A DNA stretch of 64,000 nucleotides from Erythrobacter sp. QSSC1-22B (lineage in GTDB: Bacteria; Pseudomonadota; Alphaproteobacteria; Sphingomonadales; Sphingomonadaceae). Shown piece after piece: positions 38,107 to 56,573 of this stretch. Below the pieces are notes generated by a model. The model ran no database searches, had not been told where the DNA came from, and was given only the letters and a program-made list of their open reading frames with translations. The stretch is from positions 310,001-374,000 of the forward strand of contig NZ_LZRP01000002.1 in assembly GCF_001678665.1 (NCBI RefSeq). Direction: 5' to 3'. Both the position numbers and the translations under genes were made by a program. Position 1 is the stretch's first letter. The number at the start of each line of letters is the position of its first letter.

Positions 38107-39081
38107 CTAGATTTCGCCACCGGTCAGGCGCTGGCACAGCAGGTCGAGCTGGTCTAGGCTGCGATAACGGATCGATACGGCCCCCTTGGAGGTGTCGCTT
38201 TCCGATGTGATCCGCACCGGCATCCCGAGGAACTCCTCGAGATGGTTCTGCACCGCGACGATATCGGCATCGGTCGACGGCCCACCGCTGACGCGCGACG
38301 TTCCCTTCGTCGGGATCGGTTTCGGCTCATCGGAGTGTCGCGCCAGCCTCTCGACCTCACGGACCGAGAGCTTTTCCTTCACCGCGCGCCTTGCGAGCGC
38401 GACTGCATCGTCGTGACCGATCAGGGCCCGGGCGTGCCCCATCGACAGCGCGCTATCCGCCAACAGCCCGAGGATTTCGTCCGGGAGCGCTAGCAGGCGC
38501 TGCATATTCGCGACATGACTGCGCGATTTGTCGACCATCTCGGCGATGTCCGCCTGGGTCATCTCCTCCTCCTCGGAGAGCCGGTGATAGGCACGCGCCT
38601 CCTCGACCGGATTGAGATCCTCGCGCTGGAGGTTTTCGATCAGCGCCAGCGCCATTACCTCGCGATCATCGAGCGTGCGGACGATGGCAGGAATATCGTG
38701 CAGTCGTGCTTTCTGCGCCGCCCGCCAACGGCGTTCGCCCGCGACGAGTTGATAGCTGCCATCGCCCTTTGGCCGGACGATGATCGGCTGGATTACCCCG
38801 CGCGCGGCGATGGAGGCGGCCAGCTCGCCAAGCGCGGCATCGTCGAAATGCGTGCGCGGCTGGCCGGGAAGCGGAGATATCGAGGCAATCGGGAGATTTC
38901 TCAGCCCGTTATCGTCTGATCCTCCACTCGATTGTTGCGGCGCATCGTTCGACCCACCAGCAGTTTCGCGGCGGACCAGCGGCTCTTCGCGCTGAACCTC
39001 GCCCATCAGCGCGCCGAGCCCACGGCCCAGCTTGCGCTTGCGCGCCGCGCCTTTGTTCGTCGCTTCGGACCCGTCGCTCAT
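38107..39081 (-). CDS. parB: Chromosome partitioning protein ParB
   Basis: 324 residues. N-terminal basic start KRKLGRGLGALMGEV; ParB/Srx CTPase domain with QPRTHFDDAALGELAASI, GERRWRAAQKA and ENLQREDLNPVEEA; helix-turn-helix MTQADIAEMVDKSRSHVANMQRLLALP; and a C-terminal dimerisation domain (VQNHLEEFLGMPVRI). Binds parS sites, three of which lie within 5 kb upstream, and spreads as a CTP-dependent clamp. Start overlaps the parA stop (ATGA, 39078-39081). It is the last gene of the mnmE-mnmG-rsmG-parA-parB operon. Confidence 0.97.
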   Translation of the reverse strand: MSDGSEATNKGAARKRKLGRGLGALMGEVQREEPLVRRETAGGSNDAPQQSSGGSDDNGLRNLPIASISPLPGQPRTHFDDAALGELAASIAARGVIQPIIVRPKGDGSYQLVAGERRWRAAQKARLHDIPAIVRTLDDREVMALALIENLQREDLNPVEEARAYHRLSEEEEMTQADIAEMVDKSRSHVANMQRLLALPDEILGLLADSALSMGHARALIGHDDAVALARRAVKEKLSVREVERLARHSDEPKPIPTKGTSRVSGGPSTDADIVAVQNHLEEFLGMPVRITSESDTSKGAVSIRYRSLDQLDLLCQRLTGGEI

Positions 39082-39869
39082 GCGGCTTTCCTTTTTTCAG
39101 GCAACCGGCCGATCAACTCGCGCGCCAGCGCGATATAGGCGCGGCTGCCGACGCATTGGTGGTCGTAAACCAGAGCCGGCATTCCGTGGCTCGGCGCCTC
39201 GGATAAGCGGACATTTCTGGGAATGACCGATTCGAACACAAGCGGGCCAAGGCAGTCTCGGACATCGTCGGCGACCTGGTCGGTCAGACGGTTGCGGCGG
39301 TCGAACATCGTCAAAACCACGCCGACGATTCCGAGATCGGGATTGAATCGTTGTTGCACACGCTCGACTGTCTGCAGCAATTGGCTGAGCCCCTCGAGCG
39401 CAAAGAATTCACACTGCAGCGGGACCATCATGGTGTCCGCCGCGCTCATTGCATTGAGCGTCAGCAAGCCAAGCGAGGGAGGGCAGTCGATGAAGCAGAC
39501 ATCGTAGGACGAAAAACCGCCCTTCCCTGTGGTCTCGAGAGCCCGACGCAGCCGCGCGGTACGGTCCTCCACTTGGACAAGTTCGATCTCGGCTCCGGAA
39601 AGGTCCTGCGTGGCCGCGACGATATCGAGACCCGGGATGTCGGTTTCCTGCGCGCATTGGTCGAGCGTGGCTTCTTCGAGCAGAAGGTCGTAGCTGGTGT
39701 ATTCGCGATGCGCGTTGTCGATCCCGAGACCGGTCGAAGCATTGCCCTGCGGGTCGAGATCGATCAACAGCGTCTTCCATCCGGTCGCAGCCATCGCGGT
39801 AGCGATGTTGATGGCGGTGGTGGTCTTGCCCACCCCGCCCTTCTGGTTGGCGATCGCGATCGTGATCAT
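39078..39869 (-). CDS. parA: Chromosome partitioning ATPase ParA
   Basis: 263 residues. Deviant Walker A KGGVGKTTT at residues 9-17, then DLDPQGNASTGLG, the switch region CFIDCPPSLGLLTLNA and the non-specific DNA-binding C-terminus. Drives ParB-parS complexes toward the cell pole. The ATG at 39869 overlaps the rsmG stop (ATGA), and its stop overlaps parB. The upstream open frame to 40013 is not part of the protein. Confidence 0.97.
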   Translation of the reverse strand: MITIAIANQKGGVGKTTTAINIATAMAATGWKTLLIDLDPQGNASTGLGIDNAHREYTSYDLLLEEATLDQCAQETDIPGLDIVAATQDLSGAEIELVQVEDRTARLRRALETTGKGGFSSYDVCFIDCPPSLGLLTLNAMSAADTMMVPLQCEFFALEGLSQLLQTVERVQQRFNPDLGIVGVVLTMFDRRNRLTDQVADDVRDCLGPLVFESVIPRNVRLSEAPSHGMPALVYDHQCVGSRAYIALARELIGRLPEKRKAA

Positions 39870-40492
39870 GGCTTCAGCTCCACTTTGCCGGTCCCTACCA
39901 CAATACCGGCACTGTCGTCGGTATCCGACTGTTCCACGTGGAACATCGCGCGCAGCGGCCTGGGCAGGCTCTCGACCTCTTGCGCCGCAGACCGCCCCTT
40001 CGGCAACAACCAAATTGTGTCGCTTGTGGAGAAGCGCGCCGACAGGTCGAGCAATTTCGGCATTGGGGCAAAGGCACGCGCACTGATAACCGCAGCCTCG
40101 AAACTATCGAGAAGCTCAAGGCGCTCTCCGTCGATCTGGCAATTGGTCAGCCTGAGTTGGGCGGTAATGCTCCGCAACCATTCGATCCGACGATTGCGGG
40201 ACTCGACGAGGCGCACGGTCCATTCGGGGCGCATGATTGCAACTACGATCCCGGGAAAGCCTGCCCCTGCCCCAAGATCGAGCCAGAGCCCCGCTGTTTC
40301 ACGTGGAACATGATCGAGCAATTGTGCAGAATCCGCGAGGTGTCTTTGCCAAACAGTCGCTTCCGTCGGTTTGGCGATGAGGTTTTGAACCCCATTCTCC
40401 CCAATCAGGGAGGCGGTAAACTCGTCCAGGCGCGCCATTGCCGCCTCGTCACACCTAGCCGCAACATATGCCCGGGCCTCCGCTTCACCCAT
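39866..40492 (-). CDS. rsmG: 16S rRNA (guanine(527)-N(7))-methyltransferase RsmG
   Basis: 208 residues. SAM-binding motif LDLGAGAGFPGIVVAI (about 70-86), with NLIAKPTEATVWQRHLADS upstream, as in GidB/RsmG. Methylates G527 of 16S rRNA. Two parS palindromes are embedded in its coding sequence (39930-39945 and 40295-40310), so codons for MFHVEQ and HVPRET are doubly constrained. ATG at 40492 overlaps the mnmG stop (TGATG); a GTG one codon upstream is possible. Confidence 0.95.
   Translation of the reverse strand: MGEAEARAYVAARCDEAAMARLDEFTASLIGENGVQNLIAKPTEATVWQRHLADSAQLLDHVPRETAGLWLDLGAGAGFPGIVVAIMRPEWTVRLVESRNRRIEWLRSITAQLRLTNCQIDGERLELLDSFEAAVISARAFAPMPKLLDLSARFSTSDTIWLLPKGRSAAQEVESLPRPLRAMFHVEQSDTDDSAGIVVGTGKVELKP
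39930..39945. promoter_or_regulatory. parS site (perfect palindrome), inside rsmG
   Basis: TGTTCCACGTGGAACA, a perfect 16-bp palindrome matching the bacterial parS consensus. It lies about 60 bp upstream of the parA start, inside the 3' end of rsmG. It is the ParB loading site nearest to parAB. Confidence 0.95.
40295..40310. promoter_or_regulatory. parS site, inside rsmG
   Basis: TGTTTCACGTGGAACA, a 16-bp parS with a single asymmetric position, 365 bp from the first parS and within the rsmG coding region. Confidence 0.93.
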
Positions 40493-42348
40493 CACTGATC
40501 CGCTCCGACAAGCTTGCGGGCATGCACCAGCACTGCAGCAAGCGCTGCCGGGGTAATTCCCGATACGCGCGATGCAGCCCCGAGCGTCGCCGGAGTAGCC
40601 GAGGTCAGGCGCTCGACCATCTCGTTGGAGAGACCGGGCACTTTTTCATAAGGGAAATTGGCCGGGAGCCGCATTGCTTCACTGGCGCGCAGATCGCGCA
40701 ATTCGCCTTCCTGCCGCGCCAGATAGGGTGCGTATTGCGCGTCCTCGATCATCTCGGTCGCGAGATCCTCGTTCCACGTGAGGGTGCCGGGCGTAAAACC
40801 GCGCAAAACCTGCCGCGTGACGATTCCTCCCTGGACCCACTCACTCAGCGTACGAGAACCGGCGTCGGATTTGATGTCTAGTCCCTGCCCCGCCAGATCC
40901 TTCGGCCCCAGCCTGCTGCCGAACGCTTCGGTCCAGTCCTTCCGGTCATCCTCGCGTCGCCTGAACCACTCGGCGCGTTCGTTGCCGATGCAACCGAGTT
41001 CGAGCCCGAGCGGGGTCAGTCGAGAGGGAGCGTTTCCGGCGCGGAGCCGCAGTCGGTATTCGGCGCGCGAGGTGAGCATGCGGTAAGGTTCGCTGACTCC
41101 CTGGAGCACCAGATCGTCGACCATTACTGCCATGTAGGAATTGGCGCGGTCGAGCCTGGGCGCTTCGCGGCCGAGCGCGTCTGCCGCTGCATGCATTCCC
41201 GCGACCAGTCCCTGCGCCCCCGCTTCTTCGTAGCCGGTTGTCCCGTTGATCTGGCCGGCGCAATAAAGCCCGGGTACCCCCTTCACCTGCAGGTCCGAAC
41301 CCAGCGCCCGCGGATCGATATGGTCGTATTCGACCGCGTAGCCCGGCACCACCATCTCGACCCGTTCGAGCCCCTCCATGCTGCGCAGCATCGCCAGCTG
41401 AACGTCCTCGGGGAGCGAGGTGCTGATGCCGTTGGGATAGATCATCGCGCTGTCGAGCCCCTCGGGCTCGAGGAACACCTGGTGGCCGTCGCGGTCGGCG
41501 AAGCGATGGATCTTGTCCTCGATCGAGGGGCAATAGCGCGGACCTTGCGCGCCGATCGCGCCGGAGAACAGCGGAGATCGGTCCAGATTGGCCGCAATGA
41601 TCTCGTGACTGCGAGCGTTGGTACGGGTGATGGCACAGAATATTTGCGGGTTGGCGCGATCCGGGGTGAGCGCGGACATCGTCCACTCCTCTCCATCCGA
41701 CGGTTGCTCTTCGAGCCGCGACCAGTCGATCGATCGGCCATCGAGCCGCGGTGGAGTGCCGGTCTTGAGCCGTGCCATCGGCAACGCGGCTTCGCGCAAT
41801 TGCTCGGCCAGCCGCTGCGCCGACGCTTCGCCGACCCGTCCCCCTTCAACGCGGACCTCGCCACGATAGAGGATGCCGCCGAGGAAAGTACCGGTGCACA
41901 GGATCACGCGCTGCGAAGCCAGTGCCCTGCCATCGGCGAGATCGATTCCGGCAACTCTTCCGCCGTCGAACCGCAACGCTGCGACTTCGCCTGCAATCAA
42001 TTCGAGATCGCCCTGCGTGGGCAACAGTCGCTGGACGGCCGCGCGGAACAGCTTCCGGTCGGCCTGGACCCGAGGGCCCCAGACTGCGCTCCCCTTCGAG
42101 CGGTTGAGCATGCGGTAGTGGATCGCCGCGGCATCCGCAGCGCGTGCCATCAAACCGTCGAGTGCGTCGATTTCCCGCACCAAATGGCCCTTGCCGATCC
42201 CACCGATCGCCGGATTGCAGCTCATCGCGCCAATGGTGTCGAGGTCGAAATTGACCAGCGCTACCCGCGCACCCATCCGCGCCGCGACTGCTGCCGCCTC
42301 GACCCCGGCGTGCCCGCCGCCAACCACGATGATATCGAACTGCGCCAT
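40492..42348 (-). CDS. mnmG: tRNA uridine-5-carboxymethylaminomethyl(34) synthesis enzyme MnmG
   Basis: 618 residues. FAD-binding [17 protein letters not shown] at the N-terminus, the GidA signatures [22 protein letters not shown] and [11 protein letters not shown], and a C-terminal helical domain ending in [16 protein letters not shown]-like sequence. Works with MnmE to modify the tRNA wobble uridine. 59 bp separate it from the mnmE stop, and that gap contains a parS site. Confidence 0.97.
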
Positions 42349-42391
42349 TGGCGTGCGGATTAGTCGAGCAGAAGCCTCAGGTCAAAGCGCG

Positions 42392-42407
42392 TGTTTCACG
42401 TGAAACA
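42392..42407. promoter_or_regulatory. parS site (perfect palindrome) between mnmE and mnmG
   Basis: TGTTTCACGTGAAACA, a perfect 16-bp palindrome in the intergenic gap, ending one base before the mnmE stop codon. Third full parS in a 2.5-kb span. Confidence 0.96.
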
Positions 42408-43688: not shown

Positions 43689-43702
43689 ACGGCTTCCCGC
43701 CC

Positions 43703-43969
43703 TTATGTCTTGGGTTCGTCCGAAGCCGGCTTGGCCGAAGGCTTGTTGGCGTTCGTCCCTTCCATGAAGCTTTGAAACAGCTTGAATCCCGCCTGCCCCA
43801 TCGGAGCCAGCTGACGCGCGTATTCCTGCAGCTTGTCGGTGTCGGAAACGCCCTTCATGGCGCCGGCCATCATGTCGACATAGACCGCATTGGCCTTGCC
43901 GACATCGGGCAGCCCCATAAAGCTGCGCGCCTCCTCGGGCGTACAATCGATTTCGATCTGGACCTTCAT
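43703..43969 (-). CDS. DUF6489-like small protein
   Basis: 88 residues; ATG at 43969 with AGGAAG five bases upstream. It opens MKVQIEIDCTPEEARSFMGLPDV, followed by an amphipathic helix (MGQAGFKLFQSFME) and a Lys/Pro-rich tail. It resembles the alphaproteobacterial DUF6489 family, often placed just upstream of mnmE as here (14-bp gap). Function unknown; the helix somewhat resembles a phasin but I would not name it so. Confidence 0.75.
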   Translation of the reverse strand: MKVQIEIDCTPEEARSFMGLPDVGKANAVYVDMMAGAMKGVSDTDKLQEYARQLAPMGQAGFKLFQSFMEGTNANKPSAKPASDEPKT

Positions 43970-44062
43970 CGGGCTTCCTCCGTTAGTTCTTGTGCAGCCT
44001 ATCTGGGTCTGCAAAGCGCGCGACACAAGCGCACCGCGAAATTCCCCGAGGGAGACCACACG

Positions 44063-44761
44063 ATGAGCGAGACCGTTTCGATTTCGACCCTGTCCGGCGA
44101 CGACAAATTCACCACCTATGTCGCGCGCCCTGCTGGCGACCCCAAGGCCGCCATCGTGGTGATCCAGGAGATTTTCGGGGTCAATGCCGGGATCCGCCGC
44201 AAATGCGACCGGCTGGCCGAGGAAGGCTATCTCGCCATCGCCCCCGACCTGTTCTGGCGGCTCGAACCCGGGATCGAACTCGATCCCGATGTCGAACCCG
44301 AGTTCCAGCGCGCGCTCGAACTGATGGGAAAATTCGATCAGGACGAGGGCATCCGCGATATCGAAGCCGCGATCAAATGGGCGCGTAGCGAAAGCGGCGG
44401 CAAGAGCGTCGGCTGCGTCGGCTACTGTCTGGGCGGAAGGCTTGCCTACATGACCGCAGCGCGCACCGATGTGAACGCCACAGTCGGCTATTACGGTGTC
44501 GGGATCGACGGCTTGCTGCGCGAAAAAGACGCTATCGCACATCCGCTGATGCTGCATATCCCGACCGAGGACGGTTTCGTCGACAAGGATACGCAAAAGG
44601 CGATGCACGAGGGGCTCGACGACCACCCGAAGGTAACGCTCCACGATTACGAGGGACTGGATCACGGTTTCGCTACCGAATTCGGAAAGCGTCGTACGGA
44701 AGAAGCAGCGCAATTGGCCGACAAGCGCACCGCGGAGTTCTTCACGGAGCATCTGGTCTAG
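44063..44761 (+). CDS. Dienelactone hydrolase family protein
   Basis: 232 residues of the alpha/beta hydrolase fold. Cys nucleophile at C122 in GYCLGG, Glu36 in QEIFGV, and Asp and His in EDGFVD and GLDHGFAT complete the family triad. Cleaves lactones or thioester-like substrates; the physiological substrate is unknown. Start at 44063 (MSETVSISTL), with GAGGGAG upstream. 13 bp before the glutamate-synthase-like gene. Confidence 0.9.
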   Translation: MSETVSISTLSGDDKFTTYVARPAGDPKAAIVVIQEIFGVNAGIRRKCDRLAEEGYLAIAPDLFWRLEPGIELDPDVEPEFQRALELMGKFDQDEGIRDIEAAIKWARSESGGKSVGCVGYCLGGRLAYMTAARTDVNATVGYYGVGIDGLLREKDAIAHPLMLHIPTEDGFVDKDTQKAMHEGLDDHPKVTLHDYEGLDHGFATEFGKRRTEEAAQLADKRTAEFFTEHLV

Positions 44762-44774
44762 GAGACGCGACGCC

Positions 44775-46364
44775 TTGCATCGGCTCCCGGCACGTTATGT
44801 CATCCCCGCGCTGCTGCTGGCGCTGACCGCGCTGGCGTGGCTGTCGGTACCGCTCAACCCAGCCCTCTGGCTGCTCGTGCCCATGACCGTCATCGCCCTG
44901 TGGGACGCAGTCCAGCGGCGACACACACTGCGCCGCAACTACCCCCTGTTCGCGCGAATTCGCTGGCTCATGGAGGATATGCGCCCCTTCGCGCAGGCCT
45001 ATCTGGTGGAGAGCGATCTCGAAGGGCGCCCCTTCAGCCACCAGGAGCGCTCGCTGGTCTATGCTCGCGCCAAGGGCGATCTCGATTCGCATCCGATGGG
45101 GACAGAGCTCGACGTCTATTCCGATGAATACGAGTGGCTCGGCCATTCGATCGTCCCGCGCGCCGAGATTCCGGAAAACTGGAGCGTTGAGGTGGGCGCG
45201 GGATCCTGTTCCAAACCCTACGCCTCCTCGCTGCTCAATATTTCGGCAATGAGCTTCGGATCGCTTTCGGCGCGGGCGATCGAAGCGCTCAATCAGGGCG
45301 CGAAGCTTGGTGGTTTCGCGCACAACACCGGCGAAGGGAGCATCAGCCGTTATCACCGCAAGCCCGGCGGCGATCTGATCTGGGAGTTGGGAAGCGGCTA
45401 TTTCGGCTGTCGCCAGCCGGATGGCTCCTTCGACCCCGAGCAATTCCGCGACAATGCCGCTCCCGATCAGGTAAAGATGATTGAGGTCAAGCTGAGCCAG
45501 GGCGCCAAACCTGGCCATGGCGGCGTCCTGCCGGGGGCCAAGGTCACGAAGGAAATCGCGGAGGCACGCGGGGTGCCCGTCGGCGAGACGGTGATCTCGC
45601 CTGCGGCGCATCCGGCCTTCTCAACCCCGATCGAATTGCTCGAATTCCTTACCCGGCTGCGCGAGCTCTCCGGCGGCAAGCCGGTGGGCATCAAATTATG
45701 CGTCGGCCAACCACACGAGATCTTCGCCGTCGGCAAGGCGATGGTTGAAACCGGCCTGCATCCCGATTTCATCACCGTCGACGGTGCGGAAGGGGGTACC
45801 GGTGCGGCACCGCTCGAATTGAGCAATTCAGTCGGCATGCCGCTCCGCGAAGGGCAGATATTCGTTCGCAACATGTTGGTGGGCACCAATTTTCGCGACC
45901 GGGTCAAGATCGCCGCGGCGGGCAAGATCCATTCGGGCGCGCAGATGGCCAAATCCTTCGCGCTGGGAGCGGACTGGTGCAACGCTGCGCGGCCTTTCAT
46001 GTTCGCGCTGGGCTGCGTCCAATCGATGAATTGCCACACCGGCCACTGCCCCACCGGGGTCGCGACGCAGGAAGAATGGCGCCAGCGCGGCCTGGTGATC
46101 GAGGAAAAGGCCCCGCGCGTCGCACGTTTCCACAAGGCGACGCTCCACTCGCTGCGCGAGATCGTGGTCGCCATGGGGCTCGAATCGCCATGGGATATCG
46201 GCCCGCATGACATGCGCGAAAGGCTCAACGGCGCCCGTTCCGACGCGGTGGACCGGATTTACACCTTTGTCGAAGCCGGCAGCCTGTTGCACAACGCGGA
46301 TGATACCCCGCTGGCGCGCCATTGGCAGGCCGCCCGCGCAAACAGCTTCAGGAGAGCGGAATGA
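44775..46364 (+). CDS. FMN-binding glutamate synthase family protein
   Basis: 529 residues from a TTG at 44775 with GGAG upstream. Two N-terminal transmembrane helices (about 8-45) precede a glutamate synthase domain 2-like TIM barrel: FAHNTGEGSISRYHRKPGGDLIWELG, FITVDGAEGGTGAAPLE and a Cys cluster CVQSMNCHTGHCPTGVATQ for an iron-sulfur centre. There is no amidotransferase domain, so it is not a full GOGAT. Membrane-anchored flavoprotein of unknown substrate. Its stop overlaps the next start (ATGA). Confidence 0.88.
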   Translation: MHRLPARYVIPALLLALTALAWLSVPLNPALWLLVPMTVIALWDAVQRRHTLRRNYPLFARIRWLMEDMRPFAQAYLVESDLEGRPFSHQERSLVYARAKGDLDSHPMGTELDVYSDEYEWLGHSIVPRAEIPENWSVEVGAGSCSKPYASSLLNISAMSFGSLSARAIEALNQGAKLGGFAHNTGEGSISRYHRKPGGDLIWELGSGYFGCRQPDGSFDPEQFRDNAAPDQVKMIEVKLSQGAKPGHGGVLPGAKVTKEIAEARGVPVGETVISPAAHPAFSTPIELLEFLTRLRELSGGKPVGIKLCVGQPHEIFAVGKAMVETGLHPDFITVDGAEGGTGAAPLELSNSVGMPLREGQIFVRNMLVGTNFRDRVKIAAAGKIHSGAQMAKSFALGADWCNAARPFMFALGCVQSMNCHTGHCPTGVATQEEWRQRGLVIEEKAPRVARFHKATLHSLREIVVAMGLESPWDIGPHDMRERLNGARSDAVDRIYTFVEAGSLLHNADDTPLARHWQAARANSFRRAE

Positions 46365-46759
46365 GCGCACACAAGGGCCTGGAGCGGTGGCACAGAGTGA
46401 TGGCCGAGGGTAGCTCGCCCGCAGACCTCGCAACGATCATCCATCCCGAGGCAGTGTTCCACTCTCCCGTGGTCCACACCCCGCAGCGCGGGCGCGATCT
46501 GGTGGTGGCCTATCTCGCAGCCGCCGGACAGACGCTTGCCAACGACAGCTTCGGCTATGTCCGCGAACTGGTCGACGGCGAGAACGCCATGCTCGAATTC
46601 ACCACCGAGATGGAGGGGATCGCAGTCAATGGCGTCGACATCATCCGCTTCGACGAGGACGGGATGATTACCGATTTCAAAGTGATGATCCGGCCGCTCA
46701 AGGCGGTGAACAAGGTCTGGGGAATGATGGCCGCGCAATTGGCGCAAATAAAAGCCTAG
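46361..46759 (+). CDS. SnoaL-like / NTF2-fold protein
   Basis: 132 residues with the cone-shaped NTF2 fold pattern: an N-terminal helix pair, IIHPEAVFHSPVVHTPQRGRDLV, then LEFTTEMEGIAVNGVDIIRFDEDGMITDFKVMIRPL. Family members are small-molecule isomerases, cyclases or binding proteins; no catalytic residues can be assigned here. Translationally coupled to the glutamate synthase-like gene. Its 3' end overlaps the convergent BLUF gene by 4 bp. Confidence 0.82.
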   Translation: MSAHKGLERWHRVMAEGSSPADLATIIHPEAVFHSPVVHTPQRGRDLVVAYLAAAGQTLANDSFGYVRELVDGENAMLEFTTEMEGIAVNGVDIIRFDEDGMITDFKVMIRPLKAVNKVWGMMAAQLAQIKA

Positions 46760-47169
46760 GCGGACCGTTTCAGCGAGCCAAGCTGGCCGTAGGTCAGGAA
46801 TTCACTCACCAAATTCATGCAGTGCGGGCCGATTGGGTGGCGAGCCAGCGTTCCGAGGATTTCCTCTCCCGCTTGCGCCGATGACCCAAGTCGCCGCATT
46901 CGCCAATTGGGAAAGCACCGTGTCAGCGCGGGCTCGCGGTAATGGACGGTGAGGCCGTAATGGCGCGGATCGCGCTTCAGGACCTCGAGCAACCCGTCGA
47001 GCGCCTGTGCCTCGCCTTCCACCAACTGCAGAAACCGGCCCTGATGAAAGATCAGGAAACCGGTCACATTGCGCGAAGGATTGTTCCGCGCCGAGGTCTC
47101 GATGATCCGGAAGACATCGTCGCTCGCGAGAACCGTACACGCGCGGCTGGTGTATAACATGCGTTCCAT
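46756..47169 (-). CDS. BLUF domain blue-light sensor
   Basis: 137 residues, a BLUF domain with a short C-terminal extension and no output domain. The photochemical residues align with AppA: Tyr6 (MLYTSRA), Asn30 (SARNNPSRNVTG), Gln48 (GRFLQLVEG), and Trp89/Met91 (FPNWRM). Binds flavin and responds to blue light through Tyr-Gln rearrangement. A stand-alone BLUF must act by protein contact with a partner. ATG at 47169 with AAAGGA upstream. It lies 100 bp downstream of rho. Confidence 0.92.
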   Translation of the reverse strand: MERMLYTSRACTVLASDDVFRIIETSARNNPSRNVTGFLIFHQGRFLQLVEGEAQALDGLLEVLKRDPRHYGLTVHYREPALTRCFPNWRMRRLGSSAQAGEEILGTLARHPIGPHCMNLVSEFLTYGQLGSLKRSA

Positions 47170-47269
47170 GGCGTATTCCTTTATGCGCCAGTCACTTGCA
47201 CAGCTTTCCCTAGCAACCGGTTAACCGTGATCGCCTCGCCCGCATCCCGCCGGCGAAGCGATCCGCGGC

Positions 47270-48535
47270 CTACTGGTTCATCGTCTCGAAGAAGTCTTCG
47301 TTGGTCTTGGAATCCTTCATCTTGTCGAGCAGGAATTCCATCGAATCGATCGTGCCCATCTGCATGAGGATGCGGCGCAGCACCCACATCTTGGAGAGCT
47401 TGTCCTTCTCGACCAGCAGCTCTTCCTTGCGGGTGCCGGACTTGCCGACATCGAGCGCGGGGAAGATGCGCTTGTCGGCAACCTTGCGGTCGAGGACGAT
47501 TTCCGAGTTACCCGTGCCCTTGAATTCCTCGAAGATGACCTCGTCCATCCGGCTGCCGGTGTCGATCAGCGCGGTGGCGATGATCGAGAGCGAGCCACCC
47601 TCTTCGATGTTGCGTGCGGCGCCGAAAAAACGCTTTGGGCGCTGCAGGGCATTGGCATCGACACCGCCGGTCAGCACCTTGCCCGAACTGGGCACCACGG
47701 TGTTGTAGGCGCGGCCCAGCCGGGTGATCGAATCGAGCAGGATGACGACATCCTTCTTGTGCTCGACCAGCCGCTTGGCTTTTTCGATCACCATTTCGGC
47801 GACCTGGACGTGGCGGTTGGCGGGTTCGTCGAAGGTCGAGGCGATGACCTCACCCTTCACCGAACGCTGCATGTCGGTGACTTCCTCAGGCCGCTCGTCG
47901 ATCAGCAGGACGATCAGGAACACCTCGGGGTGGTTGTCGGTGATGGCCTTGGCCATGTTCTGCAACAGCACGGTCTTGCCGACGCGCGGCGGCGCCACGA
48001 TCAACGCGCGCTGGCCCTTGCCCTGCGGCGAGATGATGTCGATCACCCGCGCCGACTTGTCGAGCACGGTCGGATCGAGCGTGTCGAGCGAGAGCTTCTC
48101 GTCGGGATAGAGCGGCGTGAGATTGTCGAAATTGGTGCGATGGCGGACCTGGTCGGGGTCTTCGTAATTGACCTGCGTCAGCTTGGTCACCGCGAAATAG
48201 CGCTCGCCTTCGCGGGGTGCGCGGATCTCGCCTTCGACCGTGTCGCCGGTGCGCAGGCCCCATTTGCGGACCTGATTGGGGGACACATAGATATCGTCGG
48301 GCCCGGCGAGGTAATTGGCCTCGGGGCTGCGCAGGAAGCCAAAGCCATCCTGCAGCACCTCGATGGTGCCGATCCCCATGATCTTCTCGTCGTATTCCTC
48401 ATCCTCGGCGAGCTCGCGCAGGATGCAGAACATCAGATCTTGCCGGCGCATCGTCGACGCGCCCTCGACACCGAGTTCCTCGGCCATCGCGACCAAGTCG
48501 GCCGGCGGTTTTTCTTTCAGATCCTTGAGATGCAT
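47270..48535 (-). CDS. rho: Transcription termination factor Rho
   Basis: 421 residues. N-terminal RNA-binding OB region ([25 protein letters not shown]), Walker A APPRVGKT, Walker [16 protein letters not shown], the Q-loop and the C-terminal secondary RNA site. Hexameric RNA-DNA helicase that ends untranslated transcripts. Start at 48535 ([10 protein letters not shown]), the normal Rho N-terminus. A 203-bp upstream gap separates it from hemJ. Confidence 0.97.
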
Positions 48536-48738
48536 GGAGTGTCTCGAACAATTGAGGGGCTGCAATAGGGGAATGGCCGGGAGGTCTTTGTGCCCTGAGA
48601 CGATGCGCAGGACGTGCTTGGGGAAAGCGGACCCGGACCCGGCGGAACGCGGGACCTGTAACCGGTGAAGTGGTTGCGGAATTAGGACCGCGCTGCGCCT
48701 GCGTCAATCGGCAATGCGCGCGCAGACTGATCAGCCGG

Positions 48739-49182
48739 TCAGAAGGGTTTGATCACCGCGAGCACCACGATCAGCGCAGCGGCAAGCCCGGGGACCTCGT
48801 TGAGCAGCCGCAGATTGCGCCCGCTGAGCGCATAATCGCCGCGCGCCAGCTTTTTGGCATAGGCGCTCATCCAGCCGTGATAACCCGACAGGGCCAGCAC
48901 CAGCACCAGTTTGGCGATAAACCAGCCCTGGGTGTGGGCACCTGTCGTGACGACCAGCGCCAGCCCCAGAATCCACACCACCACCAGCGACGGCGTCAGG
49001 ATGATCTTGAGCAGCCTGCTCTCGCGATCAACCCAGCGCGCAGCCTCGTCCGATCCGGCGGGCGCCTCCTGATGATAGACGAAAAAGCGCGGCAGCATGA
49101 ACAGCCCCGCCATCCAGAAGATCACGAAAATCAGGTGACCGGCTTTGAGCCAGTAATAGGTCATCGAGAGAATATCCTGCAT
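48739..49182 (-). CDS. hemJ: Protoporphyrinogen oxidase HemJ
   Basis: 147 residues with four transmembrane helices. The family-specific opening is WLKAGHLIFVIFWMAGLFMLPRFFVYH, whose His residues may bind haem, and later WFIAKLVLVLALSGYHGWMSAY. Oxidises protoporphyrinogen IX to protoporphyrin IX in the penultimate haem step. 33 bp after hemE, so the two haem genes are co-transcribed. Confidence 0.93.
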   Translation of the reverse strand: MQDILSMTYYWLKAGHLIFVIFWMAGLFMLPRFFVYHQEAPAGSDEAARWVDRESRLLKIILTPSLVVVWILGLALVVTTGAHTQGWFIAKLVLVLALSGYHGWMSAYAKKLARGDYALSGRNLRLLNEVPGLAAALIVVLAVIKPF

Positions 49183-49215
49183 CGCCAGCCCATCTAGGCA
49201 GCATGCACGCCCGCG

Positions 49216-50232
49216 TCACCCCCTGACGCAGGCCAGCAGCCGATCCACATGGGCAATCGGCGTCCGGCGGTCGATGCCATGCCCAAGATTGAACACATGC
49301 GGCCGGTCGGCAAAGGCATCGAGGATCACCCGGCAGCGCTTCTCCAGTTCATCGCTGCCCGCCAGCAGCAACAGCGGATCAAGATTGCCCTGCACCGGCA
49401 TGCCTTCGGGCAATTCGCGCGCCGCCCAGACGGGATCGATCGTTTCGTCCACCCCGACCGCCTGAACCCCGGTTTCGCGGGCATAGGCCGGCAGTTTTTC
49501 GCCCGCACCCTTGGGGAAACCGATTACCGGCAGCTCGGGGAAGCGCGCCCGCAATGCCGCGGTGATCCGCGCATTGGGAGCAATGACCCAGCGCTCGAAC
49601 TCGCTCGGCGCCAGACTGCCCGACCAGCTGTCGAACAGCTGGACCGCCTCGGCGCCCGCTTCGACCTGGCCGCAAAGATAACCGATCGTCTGATCGGCGA
49701 TGGCATCGATGATCGCCTGCATCGCGCCCGGATCGCGATAGGCCAGTGCGCGCGCATCGTGCTGGTCGCGGCTGCCCTCCCCGGCGACCATGTAGGTCGC
49801 GACCGTCCAGGGGCTCCCGGCAAAGCCGAGCATGGTCACCTGGTCGCTCAGCCGCGCCCGGCACAGCCGCACCGTCTCGTAGACCGGCTCGTAGCGGCTT
49901 GGATCGGCCTGCAGAGCCTCAAGATCTGTATCGACCAGCGTGGGTGACAGCTTGGGTCCCTCGCCCGCCAGGAACTCGAGATGCTGGCCCATGGCATGCG
50001 GAACGATCAGAATATCCGAAAACAGGATCGCGCCATCGAAACCGAAGCGTTCGATCGGCTGGAGCGTAACCTCCATCGCTGCGGGACTGTCGTACACAAG
50101 ATCGAGGAAACCGCCTTTTTCGGCACGAAGCGCGCGGTATTCGGGCAGATAGCGACCCGCCTGGCGCATCAGCCATACGGGGGGCTTAGCCGAGCGCTTG
50201 CCGGCAAGAGTGTCGAGCAGGAGACCGGGCAT
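49216..50232 (-). CDS. hemE: Uroporphyrinogen decarboxylase HemE
   Basis: 338 residues. Conserved PPVWLMRQAGRYLPEYR near the N-terminus (about 17-33), the ILFSDILIVPHAMG region with catalytic Asp, and FNLGHGIDRRTP at the C-terminus. Decarboxylates uroporphyrinogen III to coproporphyrinogen III. ATG at 50232 is chosen (MPGLLLDTLAG); the frame is open further upstream through the AT-rich block, but that region is the putative origin and promoter. Same orientation relative to oriC as in Caulobacter. Confidence 0.96.
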   Translation of the reverse strand: MPGLLLDTLAGKRSAKPPVWLMRQAGRYLPEYRALRAEKGGFLDLVYDSPAAMEVTLQPIERFGFDGAILFSDILIVPHAMGQHLEFLAGEGPKLSPTLVDTDLEALQADPSRYEPVYETVRLCRARLSDQVTMLGFAGSPWTVATYMVAGEGSRDQHDARALAYRDPGAMQAIIDAIADQTIGYLCGQVEAGAEAVQLFDSWSGSLAPSEFERWVIAPNARITAALRARFPELPVIGFPKGAGEKLPAYARETGVQAVGVDETIDPVWAARELPEGMPVQGNLDPLLLLAGSDELEKRCRVILDAFADRPHVFNLGHGIDRRTPIAHVDRLLACVRG

Positions 50233-50548
50233 CGTGCGAGTCCAATCCAAAAAAATTAGATTTATATATAGATTGATGGAGTCAGTTGGCCCTGTGGACA
50301 TCGGGCATAGCGGGTTCCTGCCCGATTTCTCCCGCGATGCAAAGGCTCGCCAACCGATCCGACTCGCTGTCGTGATGGAGTCGAGTCATACTTATGCCTG
50401 CTGTCCCCAGCCTGTTCACATCCCTCTCGTGCTGTCGACAAGCGACGGGAGGAAAGGACTCGCAGTGGGTATGGAATCGGCTCCCAACTTGTCGTCAGGC
50501 CTGTCCCGTGGTTTATGCCGGAGCTTCTCCACAGGGCCAGGAGCCACA
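50233..50548. other. Candidate chromosomal replication origin (oriC)
   Basis: 316-bp gap between divergent hemE and ppsR, the position of Cori in Caulobacter. Contents: an AT-rich block at 50246-50277 (a run of A, then TTTATATATA) in an otherwise GC-rich window, a plausible unwinding element that also overlaps the hemE promoter region; DnaA-box-like sites ATGTCCACA (minus, 50293-50301) and TTCTCCACA (plus, 50525-50533, one mismatch to TTATCCACA), with a third TCCACA core at 50582-50587; and nine GANTC methylation sites from 50238 to 50597. No gene is expected here. Confidence 0.7.
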
Positions 50549-51394
50549 GTGAGCCGTATCCATCTCCACCTCGTTTCGGACTCCACAGGAGAGACTCTGG
50601 AGATGATCGCCAAGGCGGCGATCGCCCAGTTCGAGGACGCCGAGGTCGAGCGTCATTTCTGGCCCATGGTGCGCTCGCGCCAGCATCTCGACCGGATCGT
50701 CCCCGAGCTCTCGGCCAACCCGGGTATCGTCCTCTACACTCTGGTCAATCCTGAAACGCGCGGCCGGCTGGAGGAGCATTGCCGCACCCTATCGCTCACC
50801 GCCGTTGCGGTCCTCGACGGGGTCACCGCAGCGCTCGAGGGTGCGCTGGGGCGCGAGGCGCAGGGGCGGCCCGGGCGCCAGCATCTGATGGACCAGGCCT
50901 ATTTCGACCGGGTCGAGGCGATCCAGTTCACCATCGCGCATGACGACGGGATCGGTTGGGAGAATTGGGAAGAGGCCGATATCCTGCTCGTGGGCGTGTC
51001 GCGCTCGTCCAAGACCCCGACCAGCATTTATCTCGCCAATCGCGGCTACAAGGTCGCTAACATTCCGCTGGTGGTCGAAAGCCCGCCGCCGCCATCGCTA
51101 TTCAACCTGCGTCATCCGCTGGTGGTGGGGCTGACCAGCGCACCCGAGCGGCTGGTGCAGATCCGGCGCAATCGCCTGCTGACGCTCAACGAGCGCAGCC
51201 AGACTTCCTATGTCGATTCCGAGCACGTGACCTCCGAGGTGCAATTCGCCCGCCGCATGTTCGCGGACAATGGCTGGCCGGTAATCGATGTCACCCGCCG
51301 CTCGATCGAGGAAACCGCCGCCGCGATCGTCAAGCTGCTGGGCGACCGCGAGCGGCGCGACGATACGTCTTTCGAAGGGGTCAAGCCGATATGA
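50549..51394 (+). CDS. Pyruvate, water/phosphate dikinase regulatory protein (DUF299/PPSR)
   Basis: 281 residues from a GTG at 50549 with AGGAG upstream. Opens with the family sequence [20 protein letters not shown]. The P-loop-like [31 protein letters not shown] is at about 145-175. Bifunctional kinase/phosphorylase controlling PEP synthase or pyruvate phosphate dikinase. The frame is open upstream into the origin, but that part is not conserved coding. First gene of a coupled run ppsR-maf-aroE-coaE. Confidence 0.93.
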
Positions 51395-52023
51395 GCGTTG
51401 GTGCGAGCGTTGGTATGGGCGGTGGCTTGGGAGGAAGCGGGCTGATTCTCGCCTCGGGCAGCGCGTCGCGCAAGGCGATGCTGGAGGCCGCCGGTGTGCG
51501 CTTCGAGGTCGAAGCCCCTGATGTGGACGAGCGCGCGCTCGAAACCGAAATGGAGGGCGCCGAGCCCGAAGAGATCGCCCAGGCGCTGTCGGCTGCGAAG
51601 GCTGTGGCAGTATCCGTTCTGCACCCCGGCGCTCCCGTGTTGGGCAGCGATTCGCTGGTCGAGGTCGAGGGGCGCCGCTTCGACAAGCCCGCCAGCCGCG
51701 AACAGGCCGCCGAGCACCTGCGGTTCTTTTCGGGCAAGAGCATGACCCTAGACAGCGCCGCCGCACTGGCACAGGACGGACGGATTTTGTGGGTCGGGTC
51801 GGACTTCGCGCGGCTCCGCGTTCGGGCACTGAGTGACGAGTTTATCGCCGCCTATCTCGATGCGGAATGGCCTGCGGTTTCCTATTGTGTCGGGGTGTTC
51901 CGGATCGAAGGTCCCGGGGTGCAATTGTTCGATAGCGTGATGGGCGACCAATTCACCGTGCTTGGCATGCCCCTGTTGCAGGTGCTTGCCACGCTGCGCG
52001 AACAGGGAATCCTGCCCGAATGA
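51391..52023 (+). CDS. Maf-like nucleoside triphosphate pyrophosphatase
   Basis: 210 residues. [19 protein letters not shown] (about 18-36) is the Maf substrate loop; [21 protein letters not shown] and [20 protein letters not shown] follow the family pattern. Hydrolyses modified or non-canonical NTPs (dTTP/UTP or m7GTP subclass not decided). The first 17 residues are Gly-rich, possibly an over-extended start. ATGA overlaps at both ends. Confidence 0.92.
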
Positions 52024-52877
52024 GCGTACCCTATGCCGAAGTGATCGGCGACCCGATCGCGCAATCCAAATCGCCTGCGATTCATAATTTCTGGCTGGAT
52101 AAGCTCGGGATCGCGGGCGAGTATCGCGCTACCCGCGTCGCGCCAGATGGTCTCGCCGCATACTTTGCCAAGCGGCGCGGTGATCCGGACTGGCGCGGGT
52201 GCAACATCACCATGCCTCACAAGCAGACGGCGATACCGCTGCTCGACCGGGTCGAACCGCTTGCCAGCCGGGTGGGCGCGGTCAACACCGTCCACTGTGC
52301 CAGGGATGGCGCGCTGGTCGGCCGCAACACCGATGTCGGCGGCTTTCTCGAGCCGCTTGCGGACCATCTGGACGAGCAACACCTGTTCCGCATGGCGCGG
52401 GTGATCGGCACCGGCGGGGCGGCACGCGCGATCGTGGTGGGCCTTGCGGACAGAGGATTTACGCTGGTCCTCGCCGGTCGCGATCCCGACAAGGCGCGCG
52501 CGCTGCTCGAGGAGCTGGCGCCCGACGGCGAGCATCATCCCGTCTCACTGGCGGCCTTCGAGGGCACAACCGATTTCCCTTTCGACGACCGCGCGAGGTG
52601 TTGCGATCTGGTGATCAACGCCAGCCCGCTCGGGATGCGGGGGCAGCCGCCGCTCGCCTTCGACTGGAGCCATGCCCCGCCCGGAAGCATCGCCTATGAT
52701 ATCGTCACCGATCCGCTCGACACCGCCTTCCTGCGCGGTGCCGAGCGGATCGGGTTTGCGACCATCGACGGGCTCGCCATGCTGATCGGCCAGGCGGCCA
52801 CCGCGTTCGAGCATTTTTTCGGCGCGCCCCCACCGCGCGAACATGATGCCCAGCTGCGCGAAAGACTCACAGCGTGA
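52020..52877 (+). CDS. aroE: Shikimate dehydrogenase AroE
   Basis: 285 residues. Shikimate-binding motif [14 protein letters not shown] (about 10-23), catalytic Lys in [30 protein letters not shown] motif [17 protein letters not shown] and [18 protein letters not shown]. Reduces 3-dehydroshikimate in aromatic amino acid synthesis. Coupled to maf (ATGA) and coaE (GTGA). Confidence 0.95.
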
Positions 52878-53482
52878 CTCGCCCCTTGATCCTCGGGCTC
52901 ACCGGCTTGATCGGCATGGGCAAATCGACCGTCGCCGCGATGTTCGAAAGCGCCGGCGTGCCGGTGTTCGATGCCGATGCGGTGGTGCGGTCGATGCAGG
53001 GTCCCCGCGGGGAACTGGTCGGCGCGATCGAGGCGGCATTTCCCGGCAGCACCGGACCCGAAGGTGTCAAACGCGACGTGCTTGGAGAACATGTGTTTGG
53101 CGACAAGGCAGCGCTCGCGCGTCTGGAAGCGATCGTCCATCCGGCGGTGGCCGCGCGCCGGGTCGAATTCCTGATCGAGCACGGCGGCGCCCCGATGGTG
53201 GTCTTCGATATTCCGCTGTTGTTCGAGAAAGGCGGCGTGAGCCAGGTCGACAGTGTGATCGTGGTTTCCGCGCCCGCCGATGTCCAGCGCCGCCGCGTGC
53301 TGGCGCGCCCGGGTATGACCGAGGACAAATTTGCGCATATCCTCTCGCTCCAGACTCCCGATGCCGACAAGCGCGCTGCTGCAGACCATATGATCCCCAC
53401 CGGCGTACCGCTCGCGGAGACAGAAGCGCAGGTCCGCGCCCTGATCGAGCGCTTGCGCGAGGATCGCGCCCAGTCGTCTTGA
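52874..53482 (+). CDS. coaE: Dephospho-CoA kinase CoaE
   Basis: 202 residues from a GTG overlapping the aroE stop. P-loop GLIGMGKST at residues 11-19, CoA-binding VFDADAVVRSMQGP, and the lid ARPGMTEDKFAHILSLQTPDADKRAAAD. Last step of CoA synthesis. The position before dnaQ is conserved in Alphaproteobacteria. Confidence 0.95.
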   Translation: MTRPLILGLTGLIGMGKSTVAAMFESAGVPVFDADAVVRSMQGPRGELVGAIEAAFPGSTGPEGVKRDVLGEHVFGDKAALARLEAIVHPAVAARRVEFLIEHGGAPMVVFDIPLLFEKGGVSQVDSVIVVSAPADVQRRRVLARPGMTEDKFAHILSLQTPDADKRAAADHMIPTGVPLAETEAQVRALIERLREDRAQSS

Positions 53483-53531
53483 AGCTTTCGTCCCCTTGAA
53501 TCTGCGGCAAAACGGGTCGATAGGCTCAGCA

Positions 53532-54227
53532 ATGCGCGAAATCGTCTTCGACACCGAAACGACCGGACTGGACCCGAAAACCGGTGACAGGATGGTGGAG
53601 ATCGGCTGTGTCGAGATGGTGGATCTCGTGCCGACCGGCGAGAGCTTCCACGCCTATTACAATCCCGAACGCGACATGCCCGCAGGGGCCGAGGCTGTTC
53701 ACGGGCTGTCCGCGACCTTCCTGTCGGACAAGCCGCTGTTCCGCGACGGTGCATCCGCGCTGCTCGATTTCATCGGCGATTCCCCGTTGGTGGCGCACAA
53801 TGCCGGGTTCGATTTCGGTTTTCTCAATGCCGAGCTCGGACTGTGCGGGCTTGAGGCGGTCTGCCTTACGCGGATGATCGACACCGTCTCGCTGGCGAAG
53901 AAGCGCCATCCGGGCGCCAAGCTGTCGCTCGACGCGCTGTGCTCGCGTTACGGGATCGATCGCAGCCACCGGGTCAAGCACGGCGCGCTGCTCGACGCCG
54001 AACTGCTCGCGCAAGTCTACGTCGAGCTAAAAGGCGGGCGACAGATCGGGCTGGCGCTCGCCGCCGAGGTTGAAGCGCGTGTCACCCCTGGCCTGAGCGA
54101 GGCGCGCATCCGCCGTGCTCCGACCGGCGAATACCGTGCACCGCGCCCGCATTCGGCCTCGGGCGAGGAACTGGCACGTCATGCAGCCTTTCTATCACAG
54201 ATGCAGCAGCCTCTCTGGCAGCGGTAG
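53532..54227 (+). CDS. dnaQ: DNA polymerase III epsilon subunit (3'-5' exonuclease)
   Basis: 231 residues. DEDDh exonuclease: Asp7 and Glu9 (FDTETTGL), Asp94 (AHNAGFDFGFL), His150 and Asp155 (KHGALLDAELLA). The C-terminal tail is expected to contact the polymerase alpha subunit. Proofreading subunit of the replicative polymerase. Start at 53532 (MREIVFDTE), 49 bp after coaE; the Shine-Dalgarno is weak. Confidence 0.95.
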   Translation: MREIVFDTETTGLDPKTGDRMVEIGCVEMVDLVPTGESFHAYYNPERDMPAGAEAVHGLSATFLSDKPLFRDGASALLDFIGDSPLVAHNAGFDFGFLNAELGLCGLEAVCLTRMIDTVSLAKKRHPGAKLSLDALCSRYGIDRSHRVKHGALLDAELLAQVYVELKGGRQIGLALAAEVEARVTPGLSEARIRRAPTGEYRAPRPHSASGEELARHAAFLSQMQQPLWQR

Positions 54228-54302
54228 TCGCACCGGAAACAGACATTCCGATGGACGAAGCCGGATCGGGATCTGCACGGAAGAATGAGGAGAACGATTG
54301 CT

Positions 54303-54869
54303 ATGGATATCCGCGTCTCTGGGCACCAGATCGACACCGGCAGCGCGCTGCGGGATTACGTCACCGACCGGCTCAACGGTATGGTCGAGAAGTATTTCAA
54401 CCGCGCGCATTCCGCCAATGTCACCTTCGGCAAGGCGGCTGGCGGAGCCTTCAGCAGCGATATCATCACCCATGTGAGCAAGGGTCTGATCCTCAAGGCG
54501 CATGCCGAGGCGCATGATGTCCACCAGTCCTTCGACCAGGCGGCGGGCAAGATGGAAAAGCAGCTGCGCCGCTACAAGCGCCGGGTCCAGGATCATCACG
54601 CCCAGTCCACCCCCGCTGAAATCGGAGAGCAGGCCGACTACACGATCTTCGCCGGGTCCCAGGTCGAGGAAGAAACCGAACAGGACGATGCGCCCGCGGT
54701 TGTCGCGGAAACCACGGCGGATATCCCCGAAGCGAGCGTCGCCGATGCGGTGATGATGCTCGATTTGCGCGACACCGGAGCGCTGTTCTTCAAGAACGCC
54801 GCCAGCGGGCGCCACAACATGGTCTATCGCCGCCGCGATGGAACGATCGGCTGGGTTGAGCCGCGCTGA
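54303..54869 (+). CDS. hpf: Ribosome hibernation promoting factor, long form
   Basis: 188 residues. S30AE/YfiA-like domain at 1-100 (MDIRVSGHQIDTGSALRDYVTDRLNG...), an acidic linker, and a C-terminal dimerisation domain (about 130-188, SVADAVMMLDLRDTGALFFKNAASGRHNMVYRR). The long form pairs 70S ribosomes into 100S dimers in stationary phase. Start at 54303, with GGAG about ten bases upstream. Confidence 0.94.
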   Translation: MDIRVSGHQIDTGSALRDYVTDRLNGMVEKYFNRAHSANVTFGKAAGGAFSSDIITHVSKGLILKAHAEAHDVHQSFDQAAGKMEKQLRRYKRRVQDHHAQSTPAEIGEQADYTIFAGSQVEEETEQDDAPAVVAETTADIPEASVADAVMMLDLRDTGALFFKNAASGRHNMVYRRRDGTIGWVEPR

Positions 54870-54909
54870 TCCGCGCGGGTCGAACAAGAGGGACAAGGGC
54901 AGGGTTTCG

Positions 54910-55901: not shown

Positions 55902-56573
55902 ATGGTTCGCAAGACGATGACTGCCACTGTGGCGGCCGTAGCCGCTGGCACTGTACTTACCTTCGCCGGAGCCGAAACCTCCGGCGCATTTGCGCAAGAA
56001 TCGGAATCCGCATCCGAATCGACCGAACTCACCGAAGAGGTGATGCCGGTGTTCGTCGCCAAACCGGTGGTCCAGCCGATCCCGGCCGAAGACGATCTCA
56101 GCGACGAACCCTCCACCCGATCAGACTCTTTGGCTGCGGATGAGATCCCGAGCGCGACCACGCTTCATGCGCTTGTTTCCGTGACCCCGACCGACGGCGC
56201 GCTCTCCGAAGAGCTGCATTGCCTAGCCGGCGCGGTCTATTTCGAATCGCGCGGCGAACCGCTTACCGGCCAGCTCGCGGTGGCGCAGGTTATCATCAAC
56301 CGCAGCGAATCGCGTCAGTTTCCGGCGAGCTATTGCGGTGTCGTCCACCAGCGCTCGCAATTTTCTTTCGTGAAGAACGGTCGCATGCCGAGCATCCGCC
56401 AGGGTTCGTCGGCCTGGCAACGCGCCAAGGCGATCGCGCGGATCGCGCATCAGGGCATGTGGGAAAGCGAAGCAGATGATTCGCTGTATTTCCATGCCAA
56501 TTACGTCCGCCCGAGCTGGAGCCGCAGCAAGCAGGCCCGCGCGCGGATCAACACGCATATCTTCTATCGCTGA
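55902..56573 (+). CDS. SleB-like cell wall hydrolase (Hydrolase_2)
   Basis: 223 residues. Signal peptide (about 1-31, ending AGAETSGAFAQ), an acidic linker rich in Glu/Ser/Thr (32-95), and a C-terminal Hydrolase_2 domain beginning LHCLAGAVYFESRGEPLTGQLAVAQVIINR with the catalytic Glu in YFESRGE. Predicted periplasmic lytic transglycosylase or amidase-like enzyme. Not part of an obvious operon. Confidence 0.9.
   Translation: MVRKTMTATVAAVAAGTVLTFAGAETSGAFAQESESASESTELTEEVMPVFVAKPVVQPIPAEDDLSDEPSTRSDSLAADEIPSATTLHALVSVTPTDGALSEELHCLAGAVYFESRGEPLTGQLAVAQVIINRSESRQFPASYCGVVHQRSQFSFVKNGRMPSIRQGSSAWQRAKAIARIAHQGMWESEADDSLYFHANYVRPSWSRSKQARARINTHIFYR

Follow-up and report, generated by a model that had tools for sequence, protein, structure and literature searches.

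A hemE-ppsR intergenic gap as the probable chromosomal origin of Erythrobacter sp. QSSC1-22B and a conserved GANTC array within it

Does the chromosome of Erythrobacter sp. QSSC1-22B begin replication in the gap between hemE and ppsR, and what in that gap could bear on the control of initiation? The stretch of DNA analysed here (the window) comprises 64,000 nucleotides, bases 310001-374000 of contig C2 (435 kb) in a draft genome of 3.34 Mb and 49 contigs; positions are those of the window unless assigned to a contig. A first-pass annotation, made from the letters alone, had read the gap as oriC. Our analysis supports that reading, with the skew minimum, a switch in octamer polarity, synteny and the positions of the DnaA boxes in agreement, and on this comparative sequence evidence we consider it very likely that the gap at 50233-50548 is the chromosomal replication origin. 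Such a placement fixes the replication map of the genome. The gap is another origin of the hemE-COG1806 type, a known class, and as such is expected from relatives; less expected is the conserved GANTC array that it contains. Coordinates of all features are collected in Table 1.

Table 1. Features of the hemE-ppsR gap and of its neighbourhood (window coordinates)
Feature	Position	Strand	Remarks
parB and parA, origin-linked partition genes	38107..39869	-	ParB_N, HTH_ParB, ParB_C, AAA_31
Three parS-like 16-mers	39930, 40295, 42392 (span 39930..42407)		2, 1 and 0 mismatches
hemE, uroporphyrinogen decarboxylase, left flank	49216..50232	-	Pfam URO-D 2.8e-108
Candidate oriC, hemE-ppsR intergenic gap	50233..50548		C2 skew minimum 255 bp away; inside one of two equally good GGGCAGGG switch intervals on C2
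GANTC	50238..50242		retained in 20/25
AT-rich block on the hemE side, proposed as the DNA-unwinding element	50246..50277		richest 32-mer of window and C2
Conserved block, consensus GGAGTCTGTTGGCCCTGTGGA, holding left DnaA box TCCACAGGGCC	50278..50298	-	mean column identity 0.99, 25 species
GANTC beside left DnaA box	50279..50283		retained in 22/25
Perfect 12-bp inverted repeat, left arm	50287..50298		from the two inward-facing boxes
GANTC, first of 17-bp pair	50361..50365		retained in 25/25; N = C (21) or A (4)
GANTC, second of 17-bp pair	50378..50382		retained in 25/25
GANTC in tandem with 50378 site (GAGTCGAGTC)	50383..50387		retained in 22/25
GANTC, first of second 17-bp pair	50457..50461		retained in 18/25
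GANTC, poorly conserved	50474..50478		retained in 6/25
Conserved block TCCCGTGGTTTAT	50504..50516		mean column identity 0.99, 25 species
Right DnaA box TTCTCCACA	50525..50533	+	1 mismatch to TTATCCACA; TCCACA columns 50528-50533 mean identity 0.99, 25 species
Inverted repeat, right arm	50528..50539		partner of 50287-50298
ppsR / COG1806 / DUF299, right flank	50549..51394	+	Pfam Kinase-PPPase 9e-95

The gap, its flanks and its place on the chromosome

The length of 316 bp given by the first-pass annotation was confirmed, the gap running from the hemE start at 50232 (minus strand) to a ppsR GTG at 50549 (plus strand), and the Pfam families URO-D and Kinase-PPPase bear out its description of the flanking genes as divergent. 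The gap is 44% AT versus 35% for the window. An open frame at 50198-51394 that runs through the gap into ppsR was rejected as a chance frame because both its extent and the length of the gap differ among species, and an Rfam search of the window gave no match. Of 139 alphaproteobacterial loci examined (25 from the same genus, 12 from the same order and 102 others), 124 have divergent hemE and ppsR genes; in the other 15, no hemE was found beside ppsR within the stretch examined. Among 80 named Sphingomonadales loci, 79 have the divergent pair with a gap of 150-700 bp. Judged by this distribution, the hemE-ppsR arrangement is an old one. Of the 105 other genomes in which Kinase-PPPase was matched, the class survey takes 102 (all but G082, G089 and G123), among them two members of the same family, G049 and G150; the same-order sample comprises 12 of 16 genomes (G027, G029, G034 and G037 were left out). 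Gap statistics exclude the 15 loci without hemE and six gaps outside 200-620 bp, and the named set, from which locus L226 was excluded, shares at least one locus with the same-genus set (L222 in the former, G020 in the latter).

The start codon of ppsR varies at the edge of the gap. At one fixed codon, which is GTG in the window and ATG in 61 of the 79 named Sphingomonadales, 18 of the 25 same-genus species (L005, L007, L010, L012-L019 and L021-L027) have ATT (8), ATC (8) or ATA (2). A Shine-Dalgarno-like word lies upstream in 15 of these 18, while 14 have no in-frame ATG, GTG or TTG within 33 nt upstream, and nine have none even when the 30 nt downstream are included. The codon appears to be a non-standard start specific to the lineage, although ppsR may instead start further upstream. 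A non-standard start codon is also found in infC.

The GC-skew analysis that the annotation had proposed as a check places a cumulative minimum on C2 at 50803, only 255 bp from the gap, in a skew that is weak and noisy on this contig. In other bacteria the octamer GGGCAGGG is oriented from the origin toward the terminus. It occurs on C2 as 26 minus and 3 plus copies left of the gap and as 1 minus and 4 plus copies to its right (Fisher p 0.0035), and its switch can be placed equally well in two intervals, 40883-54897 of the window and 375962-397401 of C2. Octamer polarity was compared in two single-contig relatives from the same genus, G019 and G011, of six genomes searched, using the genome-wide places listed (100 of 130 plus and 100 of 155 minus for G019; 50 of 169 plus for G011). 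In G019, where ppsR is at 1,091,921, GGGCAGGG is on the minus strand until 1,111,490 and a plus run begins at 1,122,209, apart from one earlier plus copy at 1,003,439; the switch is thus 20-30 kb off the gap, and a local cumulative skew minimum is located at 1,099,082. Sampled GC skew in G019 is negative in seven of the eight samples that precede ppsR; of the nine or ten that follow it (1.13-2.42 Mb), seven are positive, the exceptions being those at 1.13, 1.84 and 2.26 Mb. In G011 the octamer is minus until 1,705,188 and plus from 1,710,130, with ppsR at 1,716,874 and with three earlier plus copies and one later minus copy as exceptions in the stretch examined. The sampled GC skew of G011 disagrees, being near zero or weakly positive just after ppsR and negative until 2.12 Mb, about 0.4-0.5 Mb past ppsR (20 samples of 20 kb). 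Octamer polarity is the clearer signal of the two in the relatives compared. The annotation had also placed parAB and three parS sites within about 12 kb, and this holds: the three parS-like sites, scored against a parS consensus, adjoin parA and parB at 7.8-10.3 kb from the gap, and genes and sites together lie 7.8-12.1 kb from it.

Within the gap, the AT-rich block that the annotation had called conspicuous is indeed so, for it is 84% AT with no richer 32-mer in the window. It is the sole cluster on C2 of 32-mers with at least 27 A/T, while C5 has three such clusters, and across the 25 same-genus gaps the block is 75-84% AT. Of the three DnaA-box-like TCCACA sites that had been noted, all are present (50293 minus, 50528 plus and 50582 plus), and the left and right boxes are conserved. 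The third, at 50582-50587, is rejected as a box, since the alignment shows it to be coding sequence in ppsR (codons of a conserved D-S-T motif) and the box is not retained in relatives. The left and right boxes have two and one mismatches to TTATCCACA, respectively, and the strict form TTATNCACA was searched for and is absent from the gap. Counting boxes was likewise rejected as proof of an origin: three sites with at most two mismatches to TTATCCACA per 370 bp occur at four further places in the window, and three TCCACA per 370 bp occur at one more place on C2 (411889), so that the number is not above chance and by itself proves nothing. The longer word TCCACAGG is found nine times on C2, three of them within 300 bp here, one of which is the coding copy.

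The two boxes face inward, forming in the window a perfect inverted repeat with the boxes 229 bp apart, and this orientation (TGTGGA in the hemE half and TCCACA in the ppsR half) recurs in 23 of the 25 same-genus gaps and 51 of the 79 named gaps, against one of the 79 for the reverse orientation. Several blocks are nearly invariant across the 25 same-genus species, the conserved blocks in the alignment being GTCCAAT, the AT block, GGAGTCTGTTGGCCCTGTGGA, TGAGTCGAGTC, AACTTGTCG, TCCCGTGGTTTAT and the TCCACA of the right box. No match to an IHF consensus was found in the gap, and two of the 25 same-genus regions have one; not every origin element need occur in each genome, as noted for origins of this class (PMC1914354).

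The principal rival to this reading is that the gap is merely the divergent promoter of hemE and ppsR, with the origin elsewhere, for example beside dnaA. Regulatory boxes and GANTC sites are to be expected in an intergenic gap between divergent genes, the box count is not above chance, and our scan of the organism's own genome covered C2 and C5, together 739 kb of 3.34 Mb. In addition, the surroundings of dnaA, which is located on C5 near base 59,000, contain five GANTC sites per 316 bp and two TCCACA per 370 bp. Two is nevertheless the most that the dnaA region reaches, so it does not hold the better DnaA-box cluster that the annotation had asked about. Moreover, the dnaA contig carries 23 plus and 4 minus copies of GGGCAGGG (8 plus and 1 minus before dnaA, 15 plus and 3 minus beyond) with no polarity switch at dnaA, whereas the skew minimum and a switch on C2 fall at or around the gap. 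The near invariance of the gap blocks over 25 species also argues against a promoter alone, as does a scan of 50180-50620 for promoters and terminators that returned none, although the sigma-70 consensus used may not fit this host group. In Sphingomonadales, dnaA is reported to lie away from the origin (PMC8116508). We therefore regard a promoter-only gap as highly improbable. Because our scan was confined to C2 and C5, and because the skew of G011 changes sign elsewhere, the identification of the gap as oriC stays a strong inference.

The place of the gap at the strand-composition switch, the conserved synteny, the boxes and the AT block were all computed here. How they would work together is modelled on other bacteria, from which we infer DnaA binding, opening of the AT block and helicase loading. 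DnaA would bind the two inward-facing boxes (50288-50298 and 50525-50533) and weaker sites between them, and a DnaA oligomer would build toward hemE. The AT block would then melt and the helicase would load there, after which forks would depart in both directions.

A conserved GANTC array inside the gap

The gap contains seven GANTC sites, the sequence recognized by CcrM, and is the densest 316-bp stretch on the 739 kb scanned, no other reaching seven. Neither these sites nor the lack of CtrA sites had been noted in the first-pass annotation. The density equals 22 sites per kb compared with 1.7 on C2 as a whole, 1.5 in coding sequence and 2.2 in intergenic stretches; the latter were called crudely from long open frames by a caller that swallowed the gap itself, which is therefore compared with them and not included. 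All 25 same-genus gaps have four to eight sites, and two further species of the genus have seven each. The 25 gaps together hold 160 sites where dinucleotide composition predicts 36.9, an observed-to-expected ratio (O/E) of 4.33 that is the highest of the 16 words of this form, with TANTA close at 4.10. In the 79 named gaps the ratio is 3.20, and 30 of these gaps have only two or three sites.

Five of the seven GANTC words are retained in at least 20 of the 25 same-genus gaps versus 51 of 305 other gap words (p 0.0025, a value that ignores kinship). Every one of the 25 same-genus gaps has a pair of sites spaced by 17 bp, as do 14 of the 79 named gaps and 1 of 93 gaps of other groups. In 11 of the 14 named gaps the pair is 69-71 bp away from the left box, and in the named set spacings of 28 bp (16 gaps) and 94 bp (15 gaps) are no rarer. 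The tandem word GAGTCGAGTC occurs once on C2 and is absent from C5. The GANTC array is real, and it suggests, but does not show, input from CcrM methylation.

Several further observations concern the distribution of GANTC. Within the gap, 50361-50383 and 50457-50479 form a 23-nt imperfect direct repeat (78%) with copies 96 bp apart, each with a 17-bp GANTC pair. The second-densest cluster on C2, six sites in 316 bp at 55998-56311, lies inside an open reading frame, and near dnaA the five-site cluster at G000:C5:60044-60221 (the L001 region) is among the two densest 316-bp stretches of C5. Two loci from another genus of the order (L179 and L180; genomes G040 and G028) have 13 GANTC sites in a 457-bp gap with different surroundings, a wealth that is perhaps an independent gain. 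Two Sphingomonas loci, L268 and L273, have 12 sites in 311 and 312 bp, but GANTC is frequent in their flanks as well (4.9 and 4.6 per kb).

What the array might do

No exact TTAA-N7-TTAA CtrA site is present in the 25 same-genus regions or in the 79 named gaps, where one gap has a one-mismatch site. This lack is unsurprising, as shuffled sequences predict no more than 0.2 sites for the 25 gaps and 1.0 for the 79. In 71 other gaps of the class, 21 such sites occur versus 9.3 expected. A trade-off between CtrA sites and GANTC across the class was considered and is not supported (p 0.84). No CtrA sites are reported in origins outside the Caulobacters, with Rickettsia as a possible exception (PMC4468827). 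The genome encodes CtrA (424.7 bits, cut-off 350), GcrA and a CcrM with N6_N4_Mtase and RAMA domains, whose score against the Caulobacter CcrM model is 601 bits where the model's cut-off is 830; no SeqA match was found in the genome.

Across the class, GANTC content does not follow the presence of CcrM. The O/E is 1.52 in 71 gaps from genomes with a RAMA domain and 1.67 in 10 without, and the per-gap medians (1.14 with RAMA versus 2.26 without, p 0.036) differ in the direction opposite to that of a CcrM driver. CcrM as the driver of class-wide GANTC content is thus unsupported, the enrichment being small and not tracking RAMA. Within the family there is no clear contrast to exploit, since RAMA is found in 295 of 297 genomes; the remaining pair, both fragmented drafts and both from one genus, have two and one GANTC sites versus three in a RAMA-bearing member of that genus. 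In G150, from the same family, the core blocks are retained together with a single GANTC.

Two roles for the array can be weighed, neither of which competes with the origin reading. One, a refinement of it, is that CcrM gates the timing of initiation: after passage of the fork the array would stay hemimethylated until CcrM appears late in the cycle, and this state would block or permit DnaA assembly, replacing the control that CtrA exerts in Caulobacter. The other is that the array serves transcription, with GcrA, bound at methylated sites, setting the timing of the hemE or ppsR promoter and initiation unaffected. The exceptional density of the array and its recurrence in every same-genus gap are in accord with gating, as are the retention of GANTC positions beyond that of other gap words (kinship ignored) and the site at 50361, where the N is either C or A but GA and TC are invariant across all 25. 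CcrM, GcrA and CtrA are all encoded and exact CtrA sites are missing from every gap of both sets, although that absence is no less than chance gives. In Caulobacter, overproduction of CcrM is reported to give extra chromosomes, but cells without CcrM replicate normally and have normal DNA content (PMC3973325). Gating is also at odds with the class-wide ratios that do not follow RAMA, with the single site of G150 and the two or three sites of 30 named gaps, and with the lack of a SeqA gene, and GcrA could equally use GANTC for transcription. GcrA prefers promoters with methylated GANTC (PMC8116508), it is encoded here, and hemE and ppsR start at the gap edges. Promoters can moreover be this dense in GANTC, given that ctrA promoters of Sphingomonadales hold up to five sites in 300 bp (PMC8116508). 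Against a transcriptional role, the best-retained sites are in mid-gap and beside the left box, and the distance between module and box is constant in related genera, which a promoter would not need. On balance, a role in transcription is plausible at somewhat less than even chances, while gating by CcrM appears unlikely.

A more specific proposal, and one that we consider slightly more doubtful still, is that Qipengyuania and related erythrobacters have an origin without CtrA control in which a fixed GANTC module reads CcrM hemimethylation so that each cycle has a single initiation, the reader being a protein other than SeqA. The module would consist of two sites in inverted orientation (GAMTC-N12-GAGTC) some 70 bp inward of the left box, a third site in tandem and the box-side site; a reader such as GcrA may take the place of SeqA. 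A GANTC module without CtrA sites offers a mutable target for the study of once-per-cycle initiation control in alphaproteobacteria other than Caulobacter. Among the literature matches listed, none dealt with Qipengyuania and none combined Erythrobacter, oriC and GANTC; PMC4741004 covers Erythrobacter and oriC. As a candidate for a methylation-gated origin, the gap has sites that are both enriched and positionally conserved, and SeqA is missing.

Comparison with known origins

In E. coli, oriC has many methylation sites among its DnaA boxes beside an AT-rich unwinding region. The gap resembles it in having many methylation sites among boxes beside an AT-rich region, but differs in that GANTC and CcrM take the place of GATC and Dam and in that the genome has no SeqA match.

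Much closer are the hemE-COG1806 origins documented in Caulobacter and Rickettsia (PMC1914354). With these the gap shares divergent flanks, raised AT content with an AT block, two DnaA boxes and a shift in strand composition, an IHF site being the one element of the class not found. The statement of the annotation that the Caulobacter origin occupies the same hemE gap is correct, and Cori of Caulobacter crescentus is flanked by the same genes and contains an AT-rich block and DnaA boxes (PMC1914354), the boxes being weak (PMC4468827), as well as several GANTC sites (PMC3973325). In contrast, Cori has five TTAA-N7-TTAA CtrA sites and a length of 404 bp (PMC1914354), whereas the gap described here has none of these sites, although a ctrA gene is present, has no IHF consensus match and is 316 bp long. 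A hemE-linked oriC is predicted for most Sphingomonadaceae in DoriC, and the origins predicted with Ori-Finder for Sphingopyxis and other Sphingomonadaceae share with this gap the linkage to hemE, conserved putative DnaA boxes and a putative DNA-unwinding element (PMC4741004).
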